This document shows positions 4,945-62,275 of a stretch of 64,000 bases of DNA, piece by piece; positions within the stretch are counted from its first letter, which is position 1, and every line of letters starts with the position of its first letter. Source of the stretch: an uncultured Flavobacteriaceae bacterium (GTDB lineage: Bacteria; Bacteroidota; Bacteroidia; Flavobacteriales; Flavobacteriaceae); contig CANMXP010000004.1 in NCBI GenBank assembly GCA_947501845.1, positions 186,001-250,000 on the forward strand, written 5' to 3'. The position numbers and the translations under genes are program-made. A model generated the notes under the pieces. The model was not told the DNA's origin, did not search any database, and saw only the letters and a program-made list of their open reading frames with translations.

Positions 4945-5016
4945 GGCCCGTTCGTCTATCGGCTAGGACGCCAGGTTTTCATCCTGGTAAGAGGGGTTCG
5001 ATTCCCCTACGGGCTA
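4945..5016 (+). tRNA. tRNA-Glu (TTC)
   Basis: A 72-nt cloverleaf: acceptor stem GGCCCGT/ACGGGCT (first pair G-T) with discriminator A, anticodon stem CCAGG/CCTGG, loop TTTTCAT with anticodon TTC, and T arm with GGTTCGATTCC. The CCA end is not encoded. It lies 26 bp before rpsT on the same strand. Confidence 0.95.
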
Positions 5017-35465: not shown

Positions 35466-35539
35466 GGCCACGTGGCGCAACTGAATAGCGCACTTGATTA
35501 CGGCTCAAGAGGTTACAGGTTTGAATCCTGTCGTGGTCA
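35466..35539 (+). tRNA. tRNA-Arg (ACG)
   Basis: A 74-nt cloverleaf: acceptor GGCCACG/CGTGGTC (one G-T pair) with discriminator A, anticodon stem CTTGA/TCAAG around TTACGGC (anticodon ACG, read as ICG), and T arm ACAGG-TTTGAAT-CCTGT. CCA is not encoded. A palindromic terminator follows. Confidence 0.95.
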
Positions 35540-35928: not shown

Positions 35929-35958
35929 TTGGAAAATATTTATTAATGATTATATTTG
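35929..35958 (+). promoter_or_regulatory. Promoter P1 of alginate lyase operon
   Basis: TTG at 35929-35931, a 19-nt spacer, TATATTTG at 35951-35958; an exact consensus promoter. Its -7 element runs into the first operator. P2 at 42457-42486 has the same spacing and -7 sequence. Confidence 0.8.
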
Positions 35959-35993
35959 GAAAACCAATCTGGTAAACCAAATTGGGAAACCAA
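35956..35993 (+). promoter_or_regulatory. Triple 13-bp-phased operator O1
   Basis: Three 12-bp sites start at 35956, 35969 and 35982: TTGGAAAACCAA, CTGGTAAACCAA, TTGGGAAACCAA, each separated by one base. They overlap the -7 box of P1 and extend past the likely start of transcription, so a bound protein would block initiation. FadR-type GntR proteins bind TGGTnnnACCA-like palindromes, and the only such regulator here is at 50576. Confidence 0.7.
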
Positions 35994-36020
35994 AAAAACC
36001 ACTAAACTAAATAGTATATT

Positions 36021-36224
36021 ATGAAAACAAAAAATGAAGACGGCGTTCTTGATGGCGCTGCCTTATTTTGGGCAATTATTCCCAGTACTCCTTTAATAGG
36101 AGAAAACCTTAGTGATTTTAGAGCACTGCCTTATGTCAATATTTTTCATTTTAATTCAGGTATGTATTTATTAAAAATAGTTGCTGACAGTGGTAGCTTA
36201 AATAGAAAAATTTTAGTTGAATAG
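36021..36224 (+). pseudogene. Remnant ending in a T9SS-type sorting signal
   Basis: A 67-codon frame directly behind P1/O1. The last 30 residues (NIFHFNSGMYLLKIVADSGS, then LNRKILVE) match the end of type IX secretion sorting domains, whose usual form is L.sGiYilki...g....Kiiie. The first half has no signal peptide and no recognisable domain. The likely explanation is a secreted enzyme or binding protein that lost its main part by deletion, leaving promoter, start region and tail. It precedes the PL6 gene by 85 bp. Confidence 0.55.
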
Positions 36225-36309
36225 TATATTTGATTTTATTAATATTAAGAAAATATTTATTTATTAAATAAAGGTTTTCTTATATCTTACATTAAATTTT
36301 AGAAAACAT

Positions 36310-38619
36310 ATGAAAATCTTTTTCTTTTTTCTTTTAACAAGCCTAAGTGTAGTATCCTGTAATAATGTAACTGTTGACAATGACATTATAGCCCATAATG
36401 GTGTTGAGTTGGAAACAGCAATAAAATATGCACAGCCTGGAGATGTAATAACTTTAGCTAATGGTACTTGGAAAGACGTTCAAATAAAGTTTATTGCTAA
36501 CGGAACCGAAAAGAATCCAATTACTATAAAAGCCGAAACACCTGGGCAGGTATATATAGAAGGTGTTTCCGATTTAAAATTTGGCGGACAATACCTTATT
36601 GTAGATGGCTTACATTTTAGAAATGGGTATTCCCCTAGCGAAGCTGTAGTGGCTTTTCAAGTAAACAAAGAAAGAATAGGCAACCATTGTACTTTCACCA
36701 ATAGTGTTATTGAAGATTTTAATAAACAGGAACGCGACGATTCCGATCATTGGATACAATTCTGGGGAAGACATAATACGTTGAGTAATTGTTATATCAC
36801 AGGAAAAACCAATCGTGGGCCTACCATTAGAGTGTATTTAAAAGGTAACGAACATATTAAGAATTATCATCAAATAATTAATAATCATTTTGGCCCAAGA
36901 CCCCCAAAAGGCGGAGCCAGCGGTGAAACTATACAAATAGGTGATAGTACTTCGTCTATGGCACCATGCCATACCCTGGTGGCCAATAATTTATTCGAGG
37001 AATGCAATGGCGAAGTTGAAATTATTTCTAGCAAATCCAACTTTAATGAATTTAGAAATAATGTATTCTTCAAAAGCGAAGGATCATTGGTAACAAGGCA
37101 TGGAAATTACTGTACTATTGATGGAAATTATTTTATTGGTGATGGCAAAAATGAAAACATAGGGGGCATCAGGATTATCAATACTGGGCATTGGGTGACT
37201 AATAATTACTTCTATAATTTAAAAGGAAAGAATTTTAGAAGTCCGTTAGCAGTCATGAACGGTATTCCTAAATCGTCTTTAAACAGATATTTACAAGTAA
37301 CGGATTTAGTTGTGGCCTACAACACATATATAAATTGTAAGTCGCCTTGGCAATTTGGTGTTGGTGTTAACACGGATCAAAAAGAAGTACTACCACCTTC
37401 AGAGATTCGTTCTGCCAGACCATTAAGATCTTTAGTGGCCAACAATGTACTTTATAATGAAACTGGAGATAAATCACCAATAATTGAACATGATAAAGCC
37501 GATGGCATATCATTTAAAAATAATGTTATAAATAATCAAGGAGAAGTTTTTAGAAACCAAGAAGGATTTCAAGAAGTCAGTTTTAAGTTAAGCGAAGTTG
37601 CAGAACATATTTTGATGCCTTCATCAGGTTTTGATGTGGCTCCTTATCAAGGTTTTGAGTTTGAAAAAATCACAAAAGACCTCTTTGGTAATTCAAGAAG
37701 TTCAAATAATAGCATTGGTGCCGTGGTAAATATCAATGCTAATTCCTCTTCAATTTTAGACAAAGCTAAATATGGACCAAGTTGGTATTCTGATGAAGTT
37801 GAAACCAAAACGCCCAAAACAATCAAAGTAACACCTGAAGATGACCTTCAATCTAAAATAAATGTGGCTGATAATGGTGACATTATTGCTTTAGAAGCGG
37901 CTTCATATCAAGTGGTTAAATCTATAAATATAAACAAATCACTTACAATTAAAACAATGGGTGATGGTAAGGCGTATATTTTGTTTTCTGGCAACGAAAA
38001 CACACCTTTATTTCAATTACACCCAAAAGGTTTCTTGAAGTTAGAAGGTGTTATTTTGAAGGGGAATAAAAGTAATCAAGCTTTTGCCTCTTTAAAAAAA
38101 AACATGTACACCCATTTCGGATTGGAAGTTTCTCAATGTGAAATAAGCAGTTTCAATTTCGCTTTAAAGGTTTACAAACAGTCTTTTGCAGAACGTATTA
38201 CTTTTAAAAACACGTCTATTTCAAACTGTGAAAACGGATTGGAATTATCAGAAGAAACCAATGACAAAGGCGACTACAACACAGAGTATCTTACAGTAGA
38301 CAACTGCCAATTTACCAATATAAAACAGAATGTTATTGATTATTACAGAGGTGGTTATGATGAGTCTACTATAGGAGGGAATCTAATCCTTTCCAACAGC
38401 ACCTTCACAAACTGTGGCTCTGAAGAAGAAAACGGTATTTTGATAAATACGAGGGGTATTATTAATGTAGATATATCAAATAATACCTTTAAAAACAACC
38501 CCGTAAAATTGGTAGCCCTACTTTGGGGAGCTAAAAACAATTCGCATGCCAATAATACTATTTCTAATTCTGGTAAAATCCTAGTAGAGAATAACTTAAA
38601 ATTAAAGGTGATTTACTAA
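36310..38619 (+). CDS. PL6 alginate lyase lipoprotein, two beta-helices
   Basis: A 769-residue lyase of polysaccharide lyase family 6 (chondroitinase B-like parallel beta-helix), predicted to cleave alginate by beta-elimination at the cell surface or in the periplasm. Lipoprotein signal with Cys17 (VVSC). The catalytic helix covers about 25-480; EVEIISSKSN gives Lys242 and LVTRHGNY gives Arg263 and His264, the 21-residue Lys-Arg spacing of known PL6 enzymes. A second helix domain (about 505-765) starts with TPKTIKVTPEDDLQSKINVA, as in two-domain PL6 enzymes. It is the first intact gene after P1. Confidence 0.92.
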   Translation: MKIFFFFLLTSLSVVSCNNVTVDNDIIAHNGVELETAIKYAQPGDVITLANGTWKDVQIKFIANGTEKNPITIKAETPGQVYIEGVSDLKFGGQYLIVDGLHFRNGYSPSEAVVAFQVNKERIGNHCTFTNSVIEDFNKQERDDSDHWIQFWGRHNTLSNCYITGKTNRGPTIRVYLKGNEHIKNYHQIINNHFGPRPPKGGASGETIQIGDSTSSMAPCHTLVANNLFEECNGEVEIISSKSNFNEFRNNVFFKSEGSLVTRHGNYCTIDGNYFIGDGKNENIGGIRIINTGHWVTNNYFYNLKGKNFRSPLAVMNGIPKSSLNRYLQVTDLVVAYNTYINCKSPWQFGVGVNTDQKEVLPPSEIRSARPLRSLVANNVLYNETGDKSPIIEHDKADGISFKNNVINNQGEVFRNQEGFQEVSFKLSEVAEHILMPSSGFDVAPYQGFEFEKITKDLFGNSRSSNNSIGAVVNINANSSSILDKAKYGPSWYSDEVETKTPKTIKVTPEDDLQSKINVADNGDIIALEAASYQVVKSININKSLTIKTMGDGKAYILFSGNENTPLFQLHPKGFLKLEGVILKGNKSNQAFASLKKNMYTHFGLEVSQCEISSFNFALKVYKQSFAERITFKNTSISNCENGLELSEETNDKGDYNTEYLTVDNCQFTNIKQNVIDYYRGGYDESTIGGNLILSNSTFTNCGSEEENGILINTRGIINVDISNNTFKNNPVKLVALLWGAKNNSHANNTISNSGKILVENNLKLKVIY

Positions 38620-38636
38620 AAACGCTATATCACAAA

Positions 38637-39656
38637 ATGAAACAAATTTTATTCACTATAGTTGTACTTTTTACAATGTTTACCTGTAAAAACAATTCTA
38701 AAACTAATGAAGAAATAACGCAAACAAAAACGGTTAAAAAGTACCCAAGTGATGTTATCCCTTTTATGGGTAAATGGCAGATACTTTTAGGAGATGGTTC
38801 GCGTTCAGATTCCCTAGTAAATTTTGATAAACAAGCTTTTTTCTATGTTCAAAATGAAGACGAAACAGATTGGGTAGTATACAAAACACCTAATTCAGGA
38901 ATAACTTCTCCAAATTCAAGTAATACAAGGACTGAATTAGGAGAAAAAAAACGTTGGGTACCAGAAACAGGAGGTAAATTAACAGGAACATTAAAAGTAC
39001 AGCATGTATCAACAACTGGTGATGCAAGGGTATCCTCTTCTTATTCGGTTGTAGTTGGTCAAATACATAGTGACGAAGGCCATGAAAATGAACCATTAAA
39101 GATCTTTTACAAAAAATTTCCTGGACACAAAAAAGGATCTGTTTTTTGGAATTATGAAATAAATACAGAAGGCGATAATTCAGGTAGATGGGATTTCTCA
39201 ACAGCTGTTTGGGGTTATGATTTTTCGGTAGTTGGAACAAGTCCAGAGACCTATCCAGAAGAACCAAAAGATGGTATTGCTTTGGGTGAAGAATTTAGCT
39301 ATGAAGTTAACGTTTATCAGGGTGTTATGTATCTAACCTTCACAAGAGAAGGCCGTCAACCTAAAAAGTTCATTAAAAATTTATTGAAATCGGATTTTTC
39401 AAAAAAATCAGATACACCTCAACAGGTATTGGAGGCATCTGTTTCAAAAGGTCGAGATGGTGTTGAACGTAAAAATGCCTATGCAGGCGAAAAACAGTTT
39501 TTTAAGCAGGGCGCTTATAATCAAGCTAACGGAAAAGCTACTAAATCAAAAACTTATAATGGAGACATCCCTAAGCAATATGAAAATGGAAGTTATGCAG
39601 AAGTCTGGTTTAAAAAAGCAACTTTAGGATCTGGAACATTGCCAAACAAAGAGTAA
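38637..39656 (+). CDS. PL7 alginate lyase lipoprotein
   Basis: A 339-residue lyase with lipobox Cys17 (FTCKNN) and a jelly-roll PL7 domain. Family motifs: SNTRTELGEKK (the usual RTELR, here with Gly for the last Arg), VVGQIHSDE with the catalytic Gln-Ile-His, and near the end FFKQGAYNQANG (usual YFKAGxYxQ). The early Gly substitution and longer loops suggest a different PL7 subfamily from the two tandem lyases at 48445 and 49375. It follows the PL6 gene by 17 bp and is co-transcribed. Confidence 0.9.
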   Translation: MKQILFTIVVLFTMFTCKNNSKTNEEITQTKTVKKYPSDVIPFMGKWQILLGDGSRSDSLVNFDKQAFFYVQNEDETDWVVYKTPNSGITSPNSSNTRTELGEKKRWVPETGGKLTGTLKVQHVSTTGDARVSSSYSVVVGQIHSDEGHENEPLKIFYKKFPGHKKGSVFWNYEINTEGDNSGRWDFSTAVWGYDFSVVGTSPETYPEEPKDGIALGEEFSYEVNVYQGVMYLTFTREGRQPKKFIKNLLKSDFSKKSDTPQQVLEASVSKGRDGVERKNAYAGEKQFFKQGAYNQANGKATKSKTYNGDIPKQYENGSYAEVWFKKATLGSGTLPNKE

Positions 39657-39810
39657 TTAAATTCTGGTGATGCACTAAAAATAAAATATAAACTAGGTAA
39701 CCTTTATAATGGAGTGCTAATTTTAATGACGATTTCAGTTATCTAAAACTCTTCCTTAAGAATAAAAAGGAGCATATGGATTGGAGCTTGTTATAATTTC
39801 AAATAATAAT

Positions 39811-42087
39811 ATGGAAGTATTAAAACATATAAAGTCAAGTTTTTTAATAGCACTTGTTATAGTTATTATCGTTTCGTGTAAAGAAAATGACAGTACTAAA
39901 AATATTGAGTCTTCTAAATTAGAGCACCCTAGTTTAATATTGACCCAACAAGGGGTTAAAGAAATTAGAGCTAACTTAGGTTCCTTACCCATTTTTGATG
40001 AATCCTTAGCGGAAACAAAAGTGGAGATAGATGCAGAAATAGAAAACGGCATTGAGGTACCAATTCCTAAAGATTATTCAGGTGGATACACACATGAGCG
40101 TCATAAAAAAAATTTTTTGATGATGCAGAAAGCTGGTGTTTTATACCAGATTTTAGATGATGAAACATATGCCAAATATGTAAAAGATATGTTGTTTGAA
40201 TATGCGAAAATATATCCAACATTACCAGTACACCCTAAACCACGTTCGTACGCTAGAGGAAAACTGTTTTGGCAATGTTTAAACGATGCTAACTGGCTTG
40301 TCTATACTAGCCAAGCTTACGATTGTATTTATGATTTTCTAGCGGAAGCAGAACGGAATACTTTAGAAAAAGATTTATTCAAACCGTTTGCAGATTTCAT
40401 TTCAAAAGAAAACCCAAAGTTCTTTAACAGAGTTCACAACCACAGTACATGGGGTAATGCGGCTGTAGGAATGATGGCTTTAGCAATGGATGATGACAGC
40501 TTATTACAAAGAGCATTGTATGGTTATAAAGAAGCAAAAATAGACCCTAATTTAAAAGATGATGATGGTGGTTATATAAATAGAGATGGGAAAATGGGGT
40601 TCTTAGCAAATCTTTATGAACCATTTTCTCCAGATGGCTATTTTACTGAAGGGCCTTATTACCAACGTTATGCCTCTTATCCTTTTTTAATATTTGCTCA
40701 GGCGCTTCAAAATAAAAAACCTGAGCTAAAAGTTTTTCAGTATAAAGATAGTGTGCTTTTAAAGAGTGTTACAGCATTAATAAACCTATCCGATGCTAAT
40801 GGCGAGTTCTTTTTATTGAACGATGCACAAAAAGGGATGTCTTATTATTCAAGATCATTGGTTTCAGCAGTAGATATAGGGTATCATTTTGGAGGCAATA
40901 ATTCAGAATTGTTAAGCATTGCAGAAAAGCAAGGAAAGGTAACCTTAGATGATGCAGGTTTAGCCGTAGCCTTAGGAATTAAAGAAGGAAAATTACAACC
41001 TTTTAATAAAAAATCTATCGAGTTATCTGACGGGCCAAATGGAGACCAAGGTGCTGTCGGTATTGTTAGAAGTGGTGATTTAGAATTGGTTTATAAATAC
41101 ACGGCCCATGGTTTAAGTCATGGACATTTCGATAAATTATCATATGCATTATTTGATGAAGGCGATGAAGTTGTGCAAGATTACGGATTAGCACGTTTTG
41201 TAAATATTGAACAAAAAGGCGGCGGAAATTATTTAAAGGAAAATAAGACTTGGGCTAAACAGACTATAGCGCACAATACTCTAGTTCAAAATGAAACCTC
41301 ACATTTTAAAGGGAAGTATGATATAGGAAGCAAATACCATTCAGAAAAATATATTTTTAGAGCTGAAAATATAAGTCTTCAGGTAGCTAGTGCCAAGGAG
41401 AATAATGCTTATCCCAGTACCCAACTTCATAGAACCATAGCTACCATTAAAGATGAAGATTATAACAATCCGTATGTGTTGGATATCATGCGAGCAACTT
41501 CAGAAACTTCAAACCAATACGATTTGCCTTTTTACTATATCGGGCAAATCATGCAAACCAATTTTGAATATTCAAAACTGGATGTTCCTGAAGTTCTTGG
41601 GAAAAATCACGGCTATCAGCATTTGTACAAAGAAGCATCGGCTATAGCTGATGGCAATAATGTAAAGTTGAATTGGTTACTCAATAACAAATTCTACTCG
41701 TATACAGCAGTAACATCAAAAGGAGACGAAATTATTTTTGGTAGAATTGGTGCAAACGATCCCGAGTTTAATCTTAGAAATGAACCAACCTTAATCCTTA
41801 GAAAAAAGGATAATAAAGATGCGTTATTCGTTTCAACGGTTGAATCACACGGAACTTATAGCCCAGTATCAGAATCAGCCGTTAATGCCTATAGTAACAT
41901 CAAGAATATTCTTGTAGTTCATAATTCAACAGAATACACTGGTGTTGAAATTGAAATGAATGATGGAAAACAAAATCTATTCATTATTTCAAACGAAAAT
42001 GCTAATACAGATAAAGAACACAACCTTACCGTAGAAAATGAAAACCATCAATGGAAAGGTCCATGTACATTAATAAATTTAAAATAA
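39811..42087 (+). CDS. PL17 exo-oligoalginate lyase
   Basis: A 758-residue lyase of family PL17 that releases unsaturated monouronates from alginate oligomers. Lipoprotein signal with Cys23 (IIVSCKEN). An (alpha/alpha) barrel (about 35-380) holds RVHNHSTWGN (Asn210, His211) and YFTEGPYYQRYASYP (Tyr candidates 277-284). The heparinase II/III-like beta-sandwich follows, with AHGLSHGHFDKLSYALFDEG. These match the known catalytic Asn, His and Tyr positions of PL17. The ATG at 39811 is chosen over the TTG at 39781 as it gives the signal peptide directly. Confidence 0.93.
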   Translation: MEVLKHIKSSFLIALVIVIIVSCKENDSTKNIESSKLEHPSLILTQQGVKEIRANLGSLPIFDESLAETKVEIDAEIENGIEVPIPKDYSGGYTHERHKKNFLMMQKAGVLYQILDDETYAKYVKDMLFEYAKIYPTLPVHPKPRSYARGKLFWQCLNDANWLVYTSQAYDCIYDFLAEAERNTLEKDLFKPFADFISKENPKFFNRVHNHSTWGNAAVGMMALAMDDDSLLQRALYGYKEAKIDPNLKDDDGGYINRDGKMGFLANLYEPFSPDGYFTEGPYYQRYASYPFLIFAQALQNKKPELKVFQYKDSVLLKSVTALINLSDANGEFFLLNDAQKGMSYYSRSLVSAVDIGYHFGGNNSELLSIAEKQGKVTLDDAGLAVALGIKEGKLQPFNKKSIELSDGPNGDQGAVGIVRSGDLELVYKYTAHGLSHGHFDKLSYALFDEGDEVVQDYGLARFVNIEQKGGGNYLKENKTWAKQTIAHNTLVQNETSHFKGKYDIGSKYHSEKYIFRAENISLQVASAKENNAYPSTQLHRTIATIKDEDYNNPYVLDIMRATSETSNQYDLPFYYIGQIMQTNFEYSKLDVPEVLGKNHGYQHLYKEASAIADGNNVKLNWLLNNKFYSYTAVTSKGDEIIFGRIGANDPEFNLRNEPTLILRKKDNKDALFVSTVESHGTYSPVSESAVNAYSNIKNILVVHNSTEYTGVEIEMNDGKQNLFIISNENANTDKEHNLTVENENHQWKGPCTLINLK

Positions 42088-42094
42088 AACGAAT

Positions 42095-42442
42095 ATGAAA
42101 AGTTTCGGATCAAGTAAAGAATTTTTATTAGATGAAGCCCAAGACTGGGAACCAGTAGGAGAAGGCGTAAAAAGAAAAATCATGGGTTATGATGACAAAA
42201 TCATGCTTGTAAAAGTACACTTTGAAGCAGGTGGTATAGGTTACGAACACAAACATTATCATTCTCAAGTAACATATTGCCTGGATGGCGAATGGGAATT
42301 TACCATTGGAGGCGTAACACAAACTGTAAAAGATGGTGATTCTGTATACATTCCACCAAACGTACTTCATGGCGCAAAATGTACAAAAGCAGGTATACTA
42401 ATTGATGTTTTCAGCCCTATTCGCGAAGATTTCATGGAATAA
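42095..42442 (+). CDS. kdgF: Cupin KdgF, unsaturated uronate linearisation
   Basis: A 115-residue cupin that converts cyclic 4,5-unsaturated monouronate to linear 4-deoxy-L-erythro-5-hexoseulose uronate (DEH). The metal site is visible: GYEHKHYHSQVTY (His52, His54, Gln58) and VLHGAKC (His92). Length and N-terminus fit KdgF. It follows PL17 by 7 bp, which fits the product-to-substrate order. It is the last gene of the P1 operon; P2 begins 15 bp after its stop. Confidence 0.9.
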   Translation: MKSFGSSKEFLLDEAQDWEPVGEGVKRKIMGYDDKIMLVKVHFEAGGIGYEHKHYHSQVTYCLDGEWEFTIGGVTQTVKDGDSVYIPPNVLHGAKCTKAGILIDVFSPIREDFME

Positions 42443-42456
42443 CACTGTTAAAATTT

Positions 42457-42486
42457 TTGTTTTAACAAAAATTTAATATATATTTG
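42457..42486 (+). promoter_or_regulatory. Promoter P2 of susCD operon
   Basis: TTG at 42457-42459, a 19-nt spacer, TATATTTG at 42479-42486. It gives a leader of about 300 nt before susC. Confidence 0.8.
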
Positions 42487-42521
42487 GTAAACCAATCTGG
42501 AAAACCAATTTGGTTTTCCAA
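42484..42521 (+). promoter_or_regulatory. Triple 13-bp-phased operator O2
   Basis: Sites start at 42484, 42497 and 42510: TTGGTAAACCAA, CTGGAAAACCAA, TTGGTTTTCCAA, one base apart, overlapping the -7 box of P2. The arrangement is the same as O1. Confidence 0.7.
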
Positions 42522-42575
42522 AAACTAAATGTATAACACTTCTAAAAAATCATTTCTATATGAATTAAAAATGAA

Positions 42576-42635
42576 AAAAGGATAGGTGCACGCCTATCCT
42601 TTTAAACAATTTACTTCTTGTTGGAGGGAAGTAAA
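42576..42635 (+). promoter_or_regulatory. Leader element: GGTGCACGCC hairpin and GGAGGGAAG box
   Basis: In the 356-bp gap before susC, an 11-bp stem AAAAGGATAGG/CCTATCCTTTT (42576-42586, 42593-42603) carries loop TGCACG. TTGGAGGGAAGTAAA follows at 42621-42635. The same core and box recur at 51294-51354 before the MFS gene. It could attenuate transcription or bind a regulator. No start codon follows the GGAGG. Nothing more was seen in 42636-42798. Confidence 0.55.
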
Positions 42636-42798
42636 AATTTAATACACATTATTGCTATACAATAAATATGCATTTTCAAAATTACAAAAATTTGTTGGAA
42701 GATCTGTTTTTATTTAGCGATTGATGTTAGTTGATAAACCGATGTATTAGTAAAAAAATACTAATCAGACTAAACAATTTTAACTAAAAAGACAAATT

Positions 42799-45700
42799 AT
42801 GAATTTAAAATTTAAGCTAACTCTAATTACAATACTGTTTTTCAATATTGTATTGATTGCACAGAGAGGAATTACTGTTAAGGGGGCAGTAGTGTCTGCC
42901 TCAGATAACGTTCCGATTCCAGGTGTAAATGTAATTGTGCTGAACACTACTAAAGGAACTACAACAGATTTTGATGGTAACTACCAGATTAAGGTTGATA
43001 AAGGTGATGCTTTACAATTTTCTTATATTGGATTTCAATCTCAAACTGTAATAGTTGGAGATCAAACAACAATTAATGTATCGCTAACCGAAGATTTAGC
43101 GAAACTTGATGAGGTTGTTGTTGTTGGATACGGTACTCAAAAGAAATCACATTTAACAGGATCTATTTCAAAAATAACTAATGAGAACTTAGATCAAATT
43201 GCTGTAGCAAGGGTTGATGATGCTTTAGTTGGGCAAGTGTCTGGTGTAAATATTCAAGCTACTGATGGTTCTGCGGGTGCTGCACCTACTATTACTATTC
43301 GTGGTGTTGGTTCTATGGCTGGTGACTCTACACCTTTAATTGTAGTTGACGGGGTAATAGTAGACTCAGATTTTTTAAGTACACTAAACATGAATGATGT
43401 AGCATCCTTTGAAATTTTAAAAGATGCAGCATCTTCTTCTATTTATGGTTCTAAAGGTTCTAATGGTATTATTATGATTACCATGAAAGAAGGTGTTGAG
43501 GGAAAAACACGTTTCAATTATAGCACCTTTGTTGGTTTTAAAGAAGCCAGACATAGTGATGCCTATACTTTTTCTATTGCGGAAACGGCGGCAGCTGAGT
43601 TGGAAGCAAATGGCGTATTATCAGACAGAACAAGATACAAGCAACTAATTGGTGTTGATCGTTCTTGGCAAGATGTTATTTTTGATGGAGGTACTATTAC
43701 ATCTCACTCACTTTCGTTAAGAGGAGGTAATTCCAAAACAAAATATAGTATGAGTGCTAACTATTCTGATGATGAAGGTGTTTTATTAACAGATTACTTT
43801 AAAAGATATGGCGCAAGGCTTAAAGTTGACACTAAGATAAATGATAAGCTAAAAGTTGGTGTTAGTTTTACACCATCTTACACTATAAGAAGACGTTTTG
43901 ATGGTTCTACACATGATATTAACAGACAAACAAACTGGTTACCTGTGTATCATGATGCAAATACCATTCGGTATGTAGACAGAAATATTTACCCCGATGT
44001 TCAAATTGGAGATTATGCGACGCAGCGTCATTTTGATAATTACGATTTATATGGAGATGGTAGTGCGCTTGTAGATATTAGTAATACATCTAATACCAAT
44101 CCAGCAGCTAAGGTAATAGAACGTGAGCGTTTTGATAAAAAATTCAAAATGTTCGGAAGTGTTTATGGTGATTACTCAATCATTCCAGGGTTGAATTTTA
44201 GAACCATGTTATCAGGGTCGGTTCAGGATACCAAAAGAACAAGGTGGCAAGGAGTACTATCAAGTAGAAACGGAGCTGCAGGAACAAGAATGGATGAAAT
44301 TACTCAAAGAAATATTTACTTTATTTGGGATAACTTCCTTAATTATAATGCCACTATAGGAAAGCATGACATTGGAGCTACGCTTGGTGTGGTTCTTGAA
44401 GATACAGATGCTTTTAATTCAAGCATAACAGGTACAGGTTATACCAATGATGCCGTAAAACAAATCACAAATGCTGCTTTAATTTCTGCAGCAGATGCAT
44501 TTGAATGGGAGAAAAGAGGTATTTCTTATGTATCGAGACTTAACTATGCGTACGATAATAAATACTTGGCTTCTTTAAGTTTTAGACGTGACGGAAGTTC
44601 AATCTTCGGTTCAGAATATAAGTATGGTAACTTCCCTGCTGCTTCTATTGGTTGGAATGTATCTAATGAAAGTTTCCTTGAGGATAGTGAGGTCGTTAGT
44701 AATTTAAAGCTAAGAGCCAGTTATGGTGTTACAGGGAATGATCGTTTAAATACAGGTAGTATTGACCCAGATGGAAACAACACGTCTAATAGCTTGAGTA
44801 CAGGTAATATCTTAGTGGATTACTATCCTTATTTAGCCTTATTAGCTGCCACTACTTCTAGTATTGATGGAAGTATTACATCTGGTTTTGCGCCTTTAAA
44901 CATAGCAAACCCTGAACTAAAATGGGAAAGACTGGTTGAGTTTAACCCTGGTATTGATTTCGGTTTATTTAACAATCGTATAACAGGTTCAGTTGATTAC
45001 TATGAGCGAACAAGTGATCAGTTATTATTAAACAATCCAATTTCTTATACTACTGGATTCAATAGTGCTTTGGTAAATTTGGGAGAAGTTAAAAACGAAG
45101 GTCTTGAGTTTGAGTTAAGAACTAGAAACATATCTTCTGAAGGTTTTAGCTGGAAATCTGGTATACTGGTTACTACTAACAAAAACACATTAGTTGATTT
45201 TGCCGATTCAAACGGGCAAATTACCAATATAGATGAAAAAAGAGCTGCTGAGTGGATTAACTTAGAAGGGTTACCAATTTCGACATACTATGGTTGGGTT
45301 GTAGATAGAGATATTCCATTAGAATATTTGAATAATGCATACCATCCAATTGGTGGTGAAGCACAAGATGTGTATGTTAAAGATTTAAATGGAGATGGTA
45401 TTATTGATGATGAAGATAAAGCTCCATTAGGGAATCCATATCCAGAATTGATCTGGAGTTTTACAAATGAGTTTAAAATTGGACAAGTAGACTTCAGTTT
45501 CATGTTCCAAGGTTCTCATGGTGCAGAAGTAAGAAATATGGGAGATCAATATTTGTTTAATCATTTTAATAGTTCTCAGGATTTTAACACCACAACAACA
45601 CCTGATCAACAATTCATTAAGCAAAAAATCTTTACAGACGACATTATTCAAGATGCATCTTACATTGCATTGCGTAATGTAAACATAGGATACAATTTCC

Positions 45701-45903
45701 CAAAAGATGTATTATCTAAGTTCAACATTACTAATTTAAGAGTATATGCTTCTGGACAAAACTTAATGTACAAAACGGCAGATGATTATACAGGTTTCAA
45801 TCCAGAATCTCTAGACAAAACAAGTCCGACCAATTATGGATACCAAAGAGCTGGTTCTCCAATATTTAGAACGATTTCATTCGGATTAAACTTAGACTTT
45901 TAA
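42799..45903 (+). CDS. SusC/RagA TonB-dependent oligosaccharide importer
   Basis: A 1034-residue outer membrane receptor. A signal peptide (ending about 22, LIAQ) leads to a carboxypeptidase-regulatory-like domain (about 24-100, ITVKGAVVSASDNVPIPGVN), the TonB-box region DEVVVVGYGTQKK (about 104-116), a plug (about 115-230) with VDGVIVD and ILKDAASSSIYGSKGSNGII, and a barrel ending RTISFGLNLDF. It should take up alginate oligomers with the SusD-like partner 25 bp downstream. Its expression would be controlled at P2/O2. Confidence 0.95.
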   Translation: MNLKFKLTLITILFFNIVLIAQRGITVKGAVVSASDNVPIPGVNVIVLNTTKGTTTDFDGNYQIKVDKGDALQFSYIGFQSQTVIVGDQTTINVSLTEDLAKLDEVVVVGYGTQKKSHLTGSISKITNENLDQIAVARVDDALVGQVSGVNIQATDGSAGAAPTITIRGVGSMAGDSTPLIVVDGVIVDSDFLSTLNMNDVASFEILKDAASSSIYGSKGSNGIIMITMKEGVEGKTRFNYSTFVGFKEARHSDAYTFSIAETAAAELEANGVLSDRTRYKQLIGVDRSWQDVIFDGGTITSHSLSLRGGNSKTKYSMSANYSDDEGVLLTDYFKRYGARLKVDTKINDKLKVGVSFTPSYTIRRRFDGSTHDINRQTNWLPVYHDANTIRYVDRNIYPDVQIGDYATQRHFDNYDLYGDGSALVDISNTSNTNPAAKVIERERFDKKFKMFGSVYGDYSIIPGLNFRTMLSGSVQDTKRTRWQGVLSSRNGAAGTRMDEITQRNIYFIWDNFLNYNATIGKHDIGATLGVVLEDTDAFNSSITGTGYTNDAVKQITNAALISAADAFEWEKRGISYVSRLNYAYDNKYLASLSFRRDGSSIFGSEYKYGNFPAASIGWNVSNESFLEDSEVVSNLKLRASYGVTGNDRLNTGSIDPDGNNTSNSLSTGNILVDYYPYLALLAATTSSIDGSITSGFAPLNIANPELKWERLVEFNPGIDFGLFNNRITGSVDYYERTSDQLLLNNPISYTTGFNSALVNLGEVKNEGLEFELRTRNISSEGFSWKSGILVTTNKNTLVDFADSNGQITNIDEKRAAEWINLEGLPISTYYGWVVDRDIPLEYLNNAYHPIGGEAQDVYVKDLNGDGIIDDEDKAPLGNPYPELIWSFTNEFKIGQVDFSFMFQGSHGAEVRNMGDQYLFNHFNSSQDFNTTTTPDQQFIKQKIFTDDIIQDASYIALRNVNIGYNFPKDVLSKFNITNLRVYASGQNLMYKTADDYTGFNPESLDKTSPTNYGYQRAGSPIFRTISFGLNLDF

Positions 45904-45928: not shown

Positions 45929-47362
45929 ATGAAAAACATAAAATTTATAATAATAATATGGCTTGTTGGTGTAATCTCATCTTGTAGTGAGGATTATTTA
46001 AATCCTATCCCTAGCTCTGGTATAACATCAGCGTCTTATTATACAAACGCAGATGAAGTAGAAACAGCTTTAATTGCAATATATGATGGTGTTCAAGGCG
46101 TTAACAGCACGAGAACCCAAGATTTACACGCTATACAGTACGAATTCTATCTTACAGAAATGCGAAGTGATAACACACGTACTAAAAGTCAAGAAGGTGA
46201 AGCCGCTCAATTCGAGTTTTATAATGTAGAAGCTACAAACGGTATCGTTTCTAATTACTATGGAAGCTTTTTCAACGTTATTATGAGAGCTAACGTTGTT
46301 TTAGACAACTTAGGTGTGGTTACAGATTCTGGTACCGCTGTGGCTTTTGAAGCAGAAGCTAAATTTTTAAGAGCTTATGCATATTTTAATTTAGTTAGAT
46401 TATTTGGAGATCTACCATTAATCGATAAGGTAATTACTCCTCTAGATAAAGAAGTTCAATTTACAAGACAACCAGTATCTGCTATCTATGCTTTAATTGA
46501 AAGCGATTTAGAAACAGCTGTTGCTGGTTTGGATAACGGTAACAAAACTAGAGCATCCAAAGCTGCCGCTCAGACGCTTTTAGCTAAAGTGTATCTTACA
46601 CATAGCAAAAACTATTCTCAAGCGCAAGGGCTTTGTGAGGACGTCATGGAAAGTGGGTTTAGTTTAATGACAAACTTTAACGATGTTTTCTATAGTGAGA
46701 GAAATGCTGAAATCATTTTCGCCATAGGTTTTGAGTCTGGCTTAACTGCTGATAGTCAAAACTTCTCTGCCGAATTTTTAAATGGGGTGGGTAGAACCGT
46801 TGGTGTAAACTATGTTACACAAAGTGCAGCCACTGCTCTAGATGAAAATGGAGGAGACAGAACACAATATTCTTATAGGATCGATCCATTTCAAGTAAGT
46901 CAAAGACAAAGTATAAAATATTTACCAGACGGTAAAGATGGTGGAGCAGACGGAAAAACTTTTGAAGAAGGGGATCCTAGATTAGCTGGTAACGATTGGA
47001 TTGTTTTAAGATATGCTGATGTGTTGTTAATGCATGTTGAAGCTATTATGGCAGGAGCGGCAGACACATCAAGTTCTAATGCTTTAGATTCCTTTAATAT
47101 AATTAGAAACAGAGCAGGTTTAGATGATGACGATGATGGTACAATTACTGTTGAAGAATTACTATTAGAAAGACGTGTAGAATTAGCTTTTGAAAACCAA
47201 AGATTATTTGATCTTATTCGCTTAGGACAAGCAGAATCTGTCTTATCAACGTTTTCAGCTGATAATGGTTTAGGGTATTCTTCAACAGATTTATTATTGC
47301 CCATTCCACAGAGAGAAATTAACTTAAGCCAAGGCTTAATGAGCCAGAATCCTGGTTATTAA
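45929..47362 (+). CDS. SusD/RagB surface glycan-binding lipoprotein
   Basis: A 477-residue lipoprotein (Cys19 in VISSC) forming the lid over the SusC channel and capturing oligosaccharides. The N-terminal SEDYLNPIPSSGITSASYYT and the helical repeats (FLRAYAYFNLVRLFGDLPLI) are typical SusD, as is the C-terminal RVELAFENQRLFDLIRLGQAE followed by LLPIPQREINLSQGLMSQNPGY. Paired with susC in the usual order. Confidence 0.95.
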   Translation: MKNIKFIIIIWLVGVISSCSEDYLNPIPSSGITSASYYTNADEVETALIAIYDGVQGVNSTRTQDLHAIQYEFYLTEMRSDNTRTKSQEGEAAQFEFYNVEATNGIVSNYYGSFFNVIMRANVVLDNLGVVTDSGTAVAFEAEAKFLRAYAYFNLVRLFGDLPLIDKVITPLDKEVQFTRQPVSAIYALIESDLETAVAGLDNGNKTRASKAAAQTLLAKVYLTHSKNYSQAQGLCEDVMESGFSLMTNFNDVFYSERNAEIIFAIGFESGLTADSQNFSAEFLNGVGRTVGVNYVTQSAATALDENGGDRTQYSYRIDPFQVSQRQSIKYLPDGKDGGADGKTFEEGDPRLAGNDWIVLRYADVLLMHVEAIMAGAADTSSSNALDSFNIIRNRAGLDDDDDGTITVEELLLERRVELAFENQRLFDLIRLGQAESVLSTFSADNGLGYSSTDLLLPIPQREINLSQGLMSQNPGY

Positions 47363-50438: not shown

Positions 50439-50463
50439 TAATTTAGCTAAATTGGTTAACCAC
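50439..50463 (+). promoter_or_regulatory. Possible autoregulatory operator O3
   Basis: Palindrome TGGTTAACCA (50453-50462) lies about 110 bp before the GntR gene. Preceding it in 13-bp phase is the weaker TAATTTAGCTAA. It resembles O1/O2 sites, so the regulator may control its own gene. Confidence 0.5.
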
Positions 50464-50575: not shown

Positions 50576-51274
50576 ATGAAGATAGAAGCCATCACATCAA
50601 ACGATAGTCATAAAGTACAAAATATAATCATCACTAAGATTAGGGATTTAATAAACTATAAAAACCTTGAACCCGGTGACAAGCTACCTTCAGAAAGAAT
50701 GTTAGCCGAAAAATTTGAGGTAACGAGAAGCAACGTTAGGGACGCTATACAAAAATTAGAGTTTTATGGACTTTTAAAATCCATACCTCAAAGTGGAACT
50801 TTTGTAGCCAACATTGGGGTCATTGCCTTAAACGGAATGATTGAGGATATTCTAAGGTTAGATGAACCCGATTTCAAATCGTTGGTGGAGACTAGAATTC
50901 TTTTGGAATTAAAAACAGCGAGCTTAGCAGCCACCAGAAGAACACAAGAAGATCTTGAACATATGAAAAATACCTTAGATGCCTATGAAAAAAAAGTCTT
51001 GAATAATGAAGATGCCGTTCAAGAAGATCTGTTGTTTCATTTGGCAATTGCAAAGGCAAGCGGTAACAGCACTATGAATACATTGATGTTAACCATTACG
51101 CCAGAAATCATCACCAACTTCGAAAAGTATCATGTATGTGATGAAAACCAAGCATTTTTAGGTATTCAGGAGCATACAGATATTTATGAAGCCATTAAAA
51201 ATCAAGAACCTGCTTTAGCGAAAGAAAAAATGAAAATTCATTTTAAGGCATTGTACCAATTTTGCTATAGCTGA
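50576..51274 (+). CDS. FadR-type GntR regulator of alginate genes
   Basis: A 232-residue GntR-family repressor of the FadR/FCD subgroup. The winged helix (about 15-80) has GDKLPSERMLAEKFEVTRSN. The FCD effector domain (about 95-225) carries a complete metal site, Asp151, His155, His200 and His222 (DLLFH, EHTDI, KIHFKAL), as in acid-sugar-sensing members. It likely binds O1-O3 and is released by a uronate such as KDG or DEH (inference). It sits between the susCD operon and the uptake/reductase genes. Confidence 0.88.
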   Translation: MKIEAITSNDSHKVQNIIITKIRDLINYKNLEPGDKLPSERMLAEKFEVTRSNVRDAIQKLEFYGLLKSIPQSGTFVANIGVIALNGMIEDILRLDEPDFKSLVETRILLELKTASLAATRRTQEDLEHMKNTLDAYEKKVLNNEDAVQEDLLFHLAIAKASGNSTMNTLMLTITPEIITNFEKYHVCDENQAFLGIQEHTDIYEAIKNQEPALAKEKMKIHFKALYQFCYS

Positions 51275-51293
51275 AAAAGAATAAATATAACTT

Positions 51294-51354
51294 CTGAGGT
51301 TAGGAGGTGCACGCCTTAACTTCAGCTAAAAAACAATTTTGGAGGGAAGTAAAT
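51294..51354 (+). promoter_or_regulatory. Second GGTGCACGCC hairpin and GGAGGGAAG box
   Basis: Hairpin 51294-51325 (CTGAGGTTA paired with TAACTTCAG, one G-T) with apex GGTGCACGCC, then TTGGAGGGAAGTAAA at 51339-51353. Copy of the element before susC. A palindrome ATTGAATgATTCAAT lies further down at 51406-51420. Confidence 0.55.
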
Positions 51355-51505
51355 ACTTTATAGTATTTCTTCATTAAAAATTAAAAGATAAAGTACCCAT
51401 TAAGTATTGAATGATTCAATGCCCTAGGATTATATTGTTCAGTTTTTAGTCAAAAACAACGAATAATTAAACTAAATAAAGACATAACTAATAAAAATTA
51501 ATAAT

Positions 51506-52789
51506 ATGAAAATTAATGGTTTACGTTGGTGGATAATAGTGCTGATTTTTATAGCAACTGTTATAAACTATATCGACAGAACAGCTTTTGCTTTGTTATG
51601 GCCAGAAATGGGTAAAGACCTAGGTATGGACAAGTCAGATTATGCCATTATGCTAAACGTATTTATGGCATGTTATGCGATAGGTAAATTTGCTTCTGGT
51701 AAATTATACGATACTATAGGTACCCGTTTAGGTTTTACAGTGTCCATTATTGTATGGTCTGTAGCATCAGCATGTCATGCATTTGCAAGAGGATTAATCT
51801 CACTTTCTATTTTTAGAGGATTACTAGGTATTGGAGAAGCTGGTAACTGGCCTGGAGCTGTAAAAAGTAATGGAGAATGGTTTCCAATAAAAGAACGTGC
51901 AACAGCCCAAGGTATCTTCAATGCAGGGGCATCTATAGGAAATGTAATCGCACCTTTTGTCATAGTTTTTCTTTACACGCAATTTGGTTGGAAAACCACC
52001 TATATCATATTAGGAGCTGTCGGAATGCTTTGGGTAATTCCATGGTTGTTCTTAAATAAATCTACACCAGAAAAACACCCTTGGATAACAGAAAAAGAAA
52101 GAAATTTAATTCTATCAAGTAGAATTGATAACGATAAAGAGGACGATACCAAAAAAGCTAAAAGCTTGAGTGTTGGAAAAATATTGAGTTACAAACAATC
52201 TTGGGGCGTACTGTCTTGCCGCTTCTTTATAGAGCCAATTTGGTGGTTTTTTGCTGGGTGGATGCCAATTTATCTCAATGACAAGTTTGGTTTAAGTATA
52301 GAAGAAATAGCAAATACCATGTGGATATCCTATCTAATGGCTGCTGTTGGTAGTATTGTAGGCGGCATGTTTGCAGGGAAATTAATGAAAAAGCATTCTG
52401 TTGATTTCTCAAGGAAAGCAACTATTGCTGTGGGAGGTGTTTTAATCTTAGTTGCCTTTGTGTGTATCATTACCATGGTAAGAGAAGATAACTTTATGGC
52501 TTTCATTTATTTGGCAGGGCTAGCTTTATTCGGGTTTCAATTTGCTATTGGAAACATTCAAACCATTTCTAGTGATTTGTTTAGAGGGCCTTCTGTAGGG
52601 ACTCTAGCTGGGTTGGCTGGAACTGTAGCAGCAATGTCCCCTATGATTATGAATTGGTTTGTGGGGCAAATAACAACAAGCTCATATACTCCAGCATTTA
52701 TAGCAATATGTATTGCCGTTGCCTTGGGAGTATTGTCAATATTCGCATTTATCAAAAATATAGGACCTGTAAGAAAACATATAGATTAA
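51506..52789 (+). CDS. MFS hexuronate transporter, ExuT-type
   Basis: A 427-residue inner membrane carrier of the anion:cation symporter family with twelve transmembrane helices. Signatures: VINYIDRTAFALLWPEMGKD in helix 1 and RGLLGIGEAGNWPGAVKSNG in helix 4, with ASGKLYDTIGTRLG between helices 2 and 3. Within this family they point to hexuronate uptake, and here the substrate would be unsaturated uronate or DEH from the periplasmic lyases. It precedes the two SDR genes (37 bp) and may share their transcript. Confidence 0.9.
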   Translation: MKINGLRWWIIVLIFIATVINYIDRTAFALLWPEMGKDLGMDKSDYAIMLNVFMACYAIGKFASGKLYDTIGTRLGFTVSIIVWSVASACHAFARGLISLSIFRGLLGIGEAGNWPGAVKSNGEWFPIKERATAQGIFNAGASIGNVIAPFVIVFLYTQFGWKTTYIILGAVGMLWVIPWLFLNKSTPEKHPWITEKERNLILSSRIDNDKEDDTKKAKSLSVGKILSYKQSWGVLSCRFFIEPIWWFFAGWMPIYLNDKFGLSIEEIANTMWISYLMAAVGSIVGGMFAGKLMKKHSVDFSRKATIAVGGVLILVAFVCIITMVREDNFMAFIYLAGLALFGFQFAIGNIQTISSDLFRGPSVGTLAGLAGTVAAMSPMIMNWFVGQITTSSYTPAFIAICIAVALGVLSIFAFIKNIGPVRKHID

Positions 52790-61893: not shown

Positions 61894-61912
61894 AAATGCA
61901 TAAGATGCATTT
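61894..61912 (-). promoter_or_regulatory. Hairpin after TPP riboswitch
   Basis: AAATGCAT / ATGCATTT with a 3-nt loop directly 3' of the riboswitch core on the minus strand; possibly part of the expression platform. No T run follows. Confidence 0.4.
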
Positions 61913-61918
61913 TTAACT

Positions 61919-61990
61919 TTTTCCTTCGTTGGTACTAACCATATCAGGTTCAAAGGGACTCTCTCAGTTCCAAATAGGAACACCCCTAAA
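61919..61990 (-). ncRNA. TPP riboswitch (THI element)
   Basis: On the minus strand the stretch reads GGGGTGTTCC, then AACTGAGAGAGTCCCTTTGA, ACCTGATATGGTTAGTACC and AACGAAGGAA, the conserved CUGAGA and ACCUGAU...GGuUAGUACC blocks of the thiamine pyrophosphate riboswitch. It lies about 130 nt before thiS and should shut down the thi operon when thiamine pyrophosphate is plentiful. A TAAGTTTG -7-like element sits just upstream (62002-62009), without a well-placed TTG. The 62010-62275 gap beyond holds nothing else I recognise. Confidence 0.95.
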
Positions 61991-62275
61991 GTTTTACGAT
62001 ACAAACTTAATTTAAAAATCTGAATTTTGACTACATTTTTTTTACAAACATGATAGTGCTTTTGAAAATCAGTAGATTAATTGGTTATGGGGGATTTAAC
62101 GTAAAATACACTATCAAAATAGACTCTTTTTAGATAATAAATGGTTAATGTGCTTATATTCAGGTGTTTATTTCTATATGTCTTGAAGGAAAACACCACA
62201 GTGTTTAGTTTTAATCCAGTTGCTTTATTGGGGGCTTTTACAAATACTGCGATATTTGTTTGTAAATAACTAAGC

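Follow-up and report, generated by a model that had tools for sequence, protein, structure and literature searches.

How might two operons of one alginate locus be kept shut and opened together? The question is posed by an uncultured Flavobacteriaceae bacterium (GCA_947501845.1, contig CANMXP010000004.1, positions 186,001-250,000 of the forward strand; this whole stretch of 64,000 nucleotides (nt) is called the window here), in which two promoters of an alginate locus, P1 and P2, each carry three palindromic operators, O1 to O3, the first of which begins inside the -7 box. A sequence-only reading of the window had described this layout and ascribed it to filament-like repression by a GntR protein encoded nearby. 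We find that the observation on the operators is correct and well conserved among relatives, that the interpretation placed on it is partly supported, and that a conserved leader element between P2 and susC is a more novel lead than the operator layout.

The arrangement of TTG, 19 bp and -7 box at P1 and P2 was confirmed base by base, as were the three 12-bp sites at exact 13-bp steps. In both promoters the first site does start inside the -7 box, and the TTG of O1 is that of the box. The elements concerned are:

35929-35931 (+): P1 -33 element TTG, N19 before the -7 box, read from the sequence
35951-35958 (+): P1 -7 box TATATTTG, from sequence reading and the sigma-A consensus as described in PMC9723704
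35956-35967 (+): P1 operator O1 TTGGAAAACCAA, its TTG common with the -7 box
35969-35980 (+): P1 operator O2 CTGGTAAACCAA
35982-35993 (+): P1 operator O3 TTGGGAAACCAA
42457-42459 (+): P2 -33 element TTG, N19 before the -7 box, read from the sequence
42479-42486 (+): P2 -7 box TATATTTG, read from the sequence
42484-42495 (+): P2 operator O1 TTGGTAAACCAA, its TTG common with the -7 box
42497-42508 (+): P2 operator O2 CTGGAAAACCAA
42510-42521 (+): P2 operator O3 TTGGTTTTCCAA
50452-50463 (+): imperfect site TTGGTTAACCAC with one mismatch, possibly a single operator, ahead of the regulator gene
50576-51274 (+): GntR/FCD regulator P0001, 232 amino acids (aa), AusR-like; GntR E 2.5e-17, FCD E 2.1e-23

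The site pattern given by the sequence-only reading held as described, with one correction: O3 of P1 retains the AAACC half, and the looser TTGGnnnnCCAA is required for O3 of P2 alone. Given the sigma-A consensus TAnnTTTG at -12 to -5 as described in PMC9723704, O1 would occupy -7 to +5, O2 +7 to +18 and O3 +20 to +31.

Lone sites resembling TTGGN4CCAA are frequent: with up to one mismatch allowed, the window has 43, where 30.9 are expected and 1 of 100 shuffles reached as many. The triple at 13-bp steps occurs at two places in the 5.37 Mb of the bacterium's own genome, P1 and P2, at up to three mismatches, and the reversed-pattern control at none. We extended this search to 299 genomes of the family, allowing up to one mismatch and again using a reversed-pattern control: the triple was present in 59 and the control in 0. 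A chance origin of the triples is rejected by these empty controls. Homologues of the regulator (E <= 1e-60) were found in 73 of the 299 genomes, among them all 59 with the triple, and no triple was found in the 226 genomes lacking such a homologue (Fisher P = 2e-49, a value that ignores relatedness). The association is one-way, and it supports the view that the array sites go with the GntR/FCD protein of 50576-51274.

The step itself is strict. In the regulator loci of the best 80 of 273 relatives (L003-L082, 1.5 Mb) we counted 398 exact YTGGnnnnCCAR sites, 177 of them alone and the others in 64 runs of two and 31 of three. Within 80 bp, the distance between paired exact sites was always 13 bp (126 pairs), 26 bp (34) or 39 bp (1), and the 49 sites of the reversed pattern formed no pair within that range. 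An array of two or more sites was present in at least one copy in 73 of the 80 loci and one of three or more in 47; L032, L033, L042, L048, L056, L073 and L076 were free of arrays. With one mismatch allowed in neighbouring sites, the window, these loci and a further set (L083-L111) gave 137 arrays of two to four sites, or 128 distinct by sequence once nine repeats were dropped; the further set was fetched via the triple pattern and counts for box and spacer, not for the step. Sites 2 and 3 and the 13-bp step, whose lack of conservation had been named as a possible refutation, are both conserved in relatives.

Register and flanks are constant as well. TAnnT precedes the first site in 118 of the 128 distinct arrays, giving TAnnTTTGG with the TTG common to box and site, compared with 9 of 177 lone sites (either strand) and 1 of 49 control sites. 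Of the 118 boxed arrays, 43 have a TTG that precedes the box by exactly 19 bp, as at P1 and P2, and seven and four others have one at 18 and 20 bp, respectively; A/T content is 85% over the 24 bases that precede the box. The base between sites is A or T in 204 of 204 spacers, and so is the base after the last site in 127 of 128 arrays. Because spacers and flanking bases are A/T, the unit is best written W-YTGGnnnnCCAR-W, and the 13-bp step is then the step at which neighbours have one W in common.

The number of sites varies with the gene that follows. In L003-L082, 98 of 99 distinct arrays are followed, on the chosen strand, by an open reading frame (ORF) no more than 500 bp away. Before SusC-sized ORFs (at least 950 aa; n = 64) the arrays have three sites in 42 cases, two in 20 and four in two, and before AusR-sized ORFs (225-260 aa) they have two in 16 of 16; overall, 57 of 104 arrays have two. 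By position, 15 of these 16 directly adjoin the regulator gene, the exception being L075, which suggests autoregulation through a weaker operator. The window differs in this respect: one imperfect site at 50452, and no array, precedes its regulator gene.

The candidate regulator, P0001, is a FadR/FCD-type GntR protein (PF00392, 62.7 bits against a cut-off of 27; PF07729, 83.5 against 24.3). Its nearest named relatives among the best 80 of 273 come from Seonamhaeicola, with 95% (L003) and 90% (L004) identity for the gene, so that the source of the window is probably this genus or a neighbouring one. The first 17 residues are weakly conserved in a view of the N-terminus alone, drawn from the window and the 63 of 80 loci that passed a filter for PGDKLP and GTFV; conservation of these two motifs is no evidence there, since the filter demanded both. 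The regulator gene sits in the alginate locus together with susC/susD and alginate lyases, as membership of an AusR regulon requires, and the operators occur, by sequence, in one, two or three copies in the window and its relatives. In Zobellia galactanivorans, the AusR gene presumably also lies with the alginate polysaccharide utilization locus. AusR is described as a GntR-family protein acting on single, double or triple operators at promoters (PMC7874173) and repressing most alginate genes (PMC8286568), and its complexes are said to be inhibited by alginate breakdown intermediates, both papers citing Dudek et al. 2020, NAR 48:7786, for AusR. The likeness thus lies in a GntR-family repressor with an alginate utilization locus and in operators in one, two or three copies; the difference is that Zobellia galactanivorans is another organism, compared here via AusR as cited.

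We consider a common repressor likely: the AusR-like GntR/FCD protein of 50576 would shut both promoters, with one dimer per 12-bp palindrome. Each YTGGnnnnCCAR palindrome, flanked by an A/T base at both ends, would be the site of one dimer, and neighbours at 13 bp would share the flanking A/T pair. A dimer on O1 and sigma-A would be mutually exclusive at the -7 box because O1 is built into it (the TTG of TAnnTTTG), and the overlap fits repression. Dimers on O2 and O3, just past the expected start site, could raise occupancy and act as a roadblock to promoter escape, with all three sites filled at once and perhaps cooperatively. An alginate breakdown product would lower DNA binding, and both operons would open together. 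B-DNA has 10.5 bp per turn, and a 13-bp step corresponds to about 86 degrees, with O1 and O3 on nearly opposite faces; the proposal that dimers would spiral round the DNA is therefore geometrically sound. The filament-like repression proposed along with it is unsupported, and we reject an open-ended polymer, as the 137 arrays stop at two to four sites.

Several points weigh against this reading. The survey rows are related genomes and their counts are not independent events, and 14 of the 73 genomes with the regulator lack the triple under the search pattern. Ten of the 128 distinct arrays are without the full TAnnTTTGG box, boxed arrays other than the 43 have their TTG at another distance or have none, and the strand of each array was picked with the box and the downstream ORF as criteria, which favours the box count. 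A search for pairs with open spacing matched 100 of the 299 genomes; among the 75 matches listed, the offsets were 26 (30), 13 (26), 24 (13), 21 (2) and 28, 29, 36 and 38 (1 each), so that 13 pairs at offset 24 and six at other offsets depart from the step, and this search, whose forward control sums to 14 over the 299 rows, is noisier than that for the triple. The label AusR-like for P0001 follows, moreover, the description of AusR as cited.

Two observations on single and paired words may be added. The 13 offset-24 pairs among the 75 matches listed are one coding-like repeat with two TTGGnnnnCCAA words (for example G107:C8:683545-683580), and the register of this repeat in family genomes is unrelated to that of the operator arrays. 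A wide regulon of single sites in the bacterium's own genome is unproven, with YTGGNAAACCAA at 31 places against 18 for its control and TAnnTTTGGN4CCAR at 13 against 9.

The main rival to triple occupancy holds that the array never carries more than one or two dimers at once, on O1 or O2 or O3, or on O1 and O3 on nearly opposite faces, and that it is a reservoir of alternative registers without contact between dimers. Adjacent sites at 13 bp would be too close for neighbouring dimers, yet occupancy would be raised. FadR-type dimers usually give footprints of more than 13 bp, which counts for such a reservoir, as do the frequency of two-site arrays and the A/T flank base common to neighbours in all 204 spacers, which suggests that full sites overlap by one pair. 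The strict step, with distances of 13, 26 and 39 bp only, is however more than a mere reservoir would require, and PMC8012715 describes a compact operator on which three NanR dimers do lie next to each other; we regard this rival as improbable. It is far less probable that another regulator, such as a direct-repeat binder reading the 13-bp unit, occupies the array. The units of both arrays are indeed also direct repeats at 13 bp, but the triples are confined to genomes with the GntR homologue, 15 of the 16 two-site arrays at AusR-sized ORFs directly precede the regulator gene, and each unit is a palindrome whose GT and AC are separated by 2 nt, as reported for UxuR-type GntR sites (PMC4494728). 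We likewise give very little credence to the idea that the step is a functionally meaningless relic of tandem duplication by slippage: the units are similar and adjacent, and TRF calls both arrays tandem repeats, but the four central bases and the Y/R ends vary between units and genomes while step, spacer class and -7 register stay constant.

Repression by an AusR-like protein with one dimer per palindrome can be set beside two other members of the family. In Escherichia coli, three NanR dimers are described as lying side by side on a compact (GGTATA)3 operator, with cooperativity that works through a 32-residue N-terminal extension (PMC8012715). NanR resembles the present case as a GntR/FCD-type repressor that needs defined operator spacing and whose binding is weakened by an effector, again as described there; it differs in that its operator consists of direct GGTATA repeats, whereas the window sites are complete palindromes. 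Residues 13-225 of P0001 align to 31-247 of the NanR chain, the NCBIfam NanR model reaches 114 bits, below its cut-off of 260, and the NanR-type extension is absent from P0001, whose GntR domain match starts at residue 18. Any cooperativity must therefore rest on another surface. The window sites have GT and AC 2 nt apart, the spacing reported for UxuR-type GntR regulators (PMC4494728) and not the TGGTnnnACCA spacing cited in the sequence-only reading, although the NCBIfam UxuR model gives P0001 only 70.7 bits against a cut-off of 442. The UxuR pathway, which we take to be hexuronate-related, offers a further likeness to an alginate locus. That FadR-type dimers normally bind singly, as had been assumed, is contradicted by the account in PMC4494728, by AusR on single, double and triple operators (PMC7874173) and by the three NanR dimers per operator (PMC8012715). 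The triple-operator mechanism is thus of a kind already described, and what is sharper or new here is its anatomical detail; in a literature search covering titles and the beginnings of abstracts, we found no treatment of operator spacing or of an alginate leader RNA.

P2 and susC are separated by a leader of about 280 nt, which contains a second conserved element. Its parts, and a second copy elsewhere in the locus, are:

42576-42603 (+): leader RNA hairpin H1 with a UGCA loop, from conservation, folding and covariance model
42611-42634 (+): leader RNA hairpin H2, whose loop region holds GGAGG, from conservation, folding and covariance model
51290-51371 (+): second, weaker leader copy before the MFS transporter gene (which starts at 51506), without an operator array, covariance model E 3.9e-5

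Of 65 leaders that precede large ORFs, 46 are 240-330 nt long, and in these the strongly conserved blocks are the two hairpins and a short CAAAA-TA block. A core word of the element occurs in 44 of the 80 regulator loci, at a distance of 161-234 nt from the ORF that follows. The element at 42570-42640 folds at -25.1 kcal/mol (z -5.45). A covariance model built from 40 sequences, whose training loci may include the same species as the survey, matched 59 of the 299 family genomes (E <= 0.001; at most 15 first-look candidates scored per genome, with stricter filters). Every one of these 59 belongs to the 73 regulator-bearing genomes, and the 226 regulator-less ones gave no match. The triple is also present in 48 of the 59, and 11 of the 14 genomes that have the regulator without the triple carry the leader. 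In an order-level sample the leader was found in 8 of 296 genomes, all of them Flavobacteriaceae, and the three newly met ones all have the regulator. Of 30 fetched model hits, 26 contained the core word, each with two or three exact operator sites that begin 37-123 bp ahead of it. Judged from its N-terminus, the ORF that follows resembles SusC in 24 of these and the regulator in two. In L131 and L148, array and leader precede a regulator-like ORF rather than susC, so the cassette is not restricted to susC among the alginate genes. The weaker copy at 51290-51371 retains H1 and the GGAGGGAAGTAA word and not the 5' arm of H2.

On balance, the element looks like an undescribed alginate-specific leader RNA. 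Rfam 15 gave three matches in the window at gathering score, none of them at the leader element, and the 13 matches at 42400-42850 were all below their gathering scores. In the alignment, 96.9% of cells in the helices of H1 and H2 pair, three pairs are changed on both sides (shuffle mean 1.0; 2 of 500 shuffles reach three), and nine cells carry such double changes, a number reached in none of 500 shuffles. The RNA reading is weakened by the fact that seven of the nine double changes fall in one pair, that shuffles show more further pair types (5.9) than the alignment does (5), that a control slid by +2 has a covariation score of 0.053 against 0.051 for the helices, and that RNAalifold by itself recovers no hairpin but H1 (covariation term -0.15). 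H1 could instead be a DNA palindrome for another protein. An intrinsic terminator on the coding strand was discarded as a reading of H1, which a simple scan lists on the minus strand only. Taking both elements together, we see the odds as evenly poised that alginate susC is under two-layer control by a linked cassette, namely a 13-bp AusR lattice at the -7 box and an undescribed, alginate-specific family of two-hairpin cis-regulatory RNAs.

The genes that follow the two promoters are those of an alginate locus:

36310-38619 (+): chondroitinase B family lyase, first large ORF after P1, PF14592 E 6.1e-194, which we take to be PL6-like
38637-39656 (+): alginate lyase (Alginate_lyase2) by domain search, presumably PL7-like
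39781-42087 (+): oligoalginate lyase-like protein (Hepar_II_III_C and Alginate_lyase; NCBIfam 660.9 bits, below the cut-off of 1400), assumed to be PL17-like
42095-42442 (+): small ORF of 115 aa with a weak mandelonitrile lyase match alone in the NCBIfam scan, which we presume to be cupin-like and KdgF-like
42799-45903 (+): SusC/RagA TonB-linked outer membrane protein, TIGR04056, 763.7 bits against a cut-off of 368.25
45929-47362 (+): SusD-family lipoprotein, SusD_RagB E 2.4e-27

Downstream of P2, susC and susD are followed by a gene for a PKD-domain protein and those for two further alginate lyases, which we also take to be PL7-like. A 67-aa ORF between P1 and the PL6-like gene (36021-36224) is possibly a gene remnant, and its end seems to resemble a type IX secretion C-terminal domain. 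Elsewhere in the window, the Rfam 15 scan places a thiamine pyrophosphate (TPP) riboswitch at 61904-61997 (-) and tRNA genes at 35466-35539 (+) and 4945-5016 (+).

For marine flavobacteria, these results provide a reading rule for alginate regulons: a regulated promoter is predicted wherever TAnnTTTGG leads into palindromes at 13-bp steps. The arrays would also represent a second architecture, besides that of NanR, for placing several GntR dimers on one operator, here without the NanR N-terminal extension. If the leader proves to be a regulatory RNA, it would place control at the RNA level as well in a marine polysaccharide utilization locus that the cited accounts describe with a repressor only.

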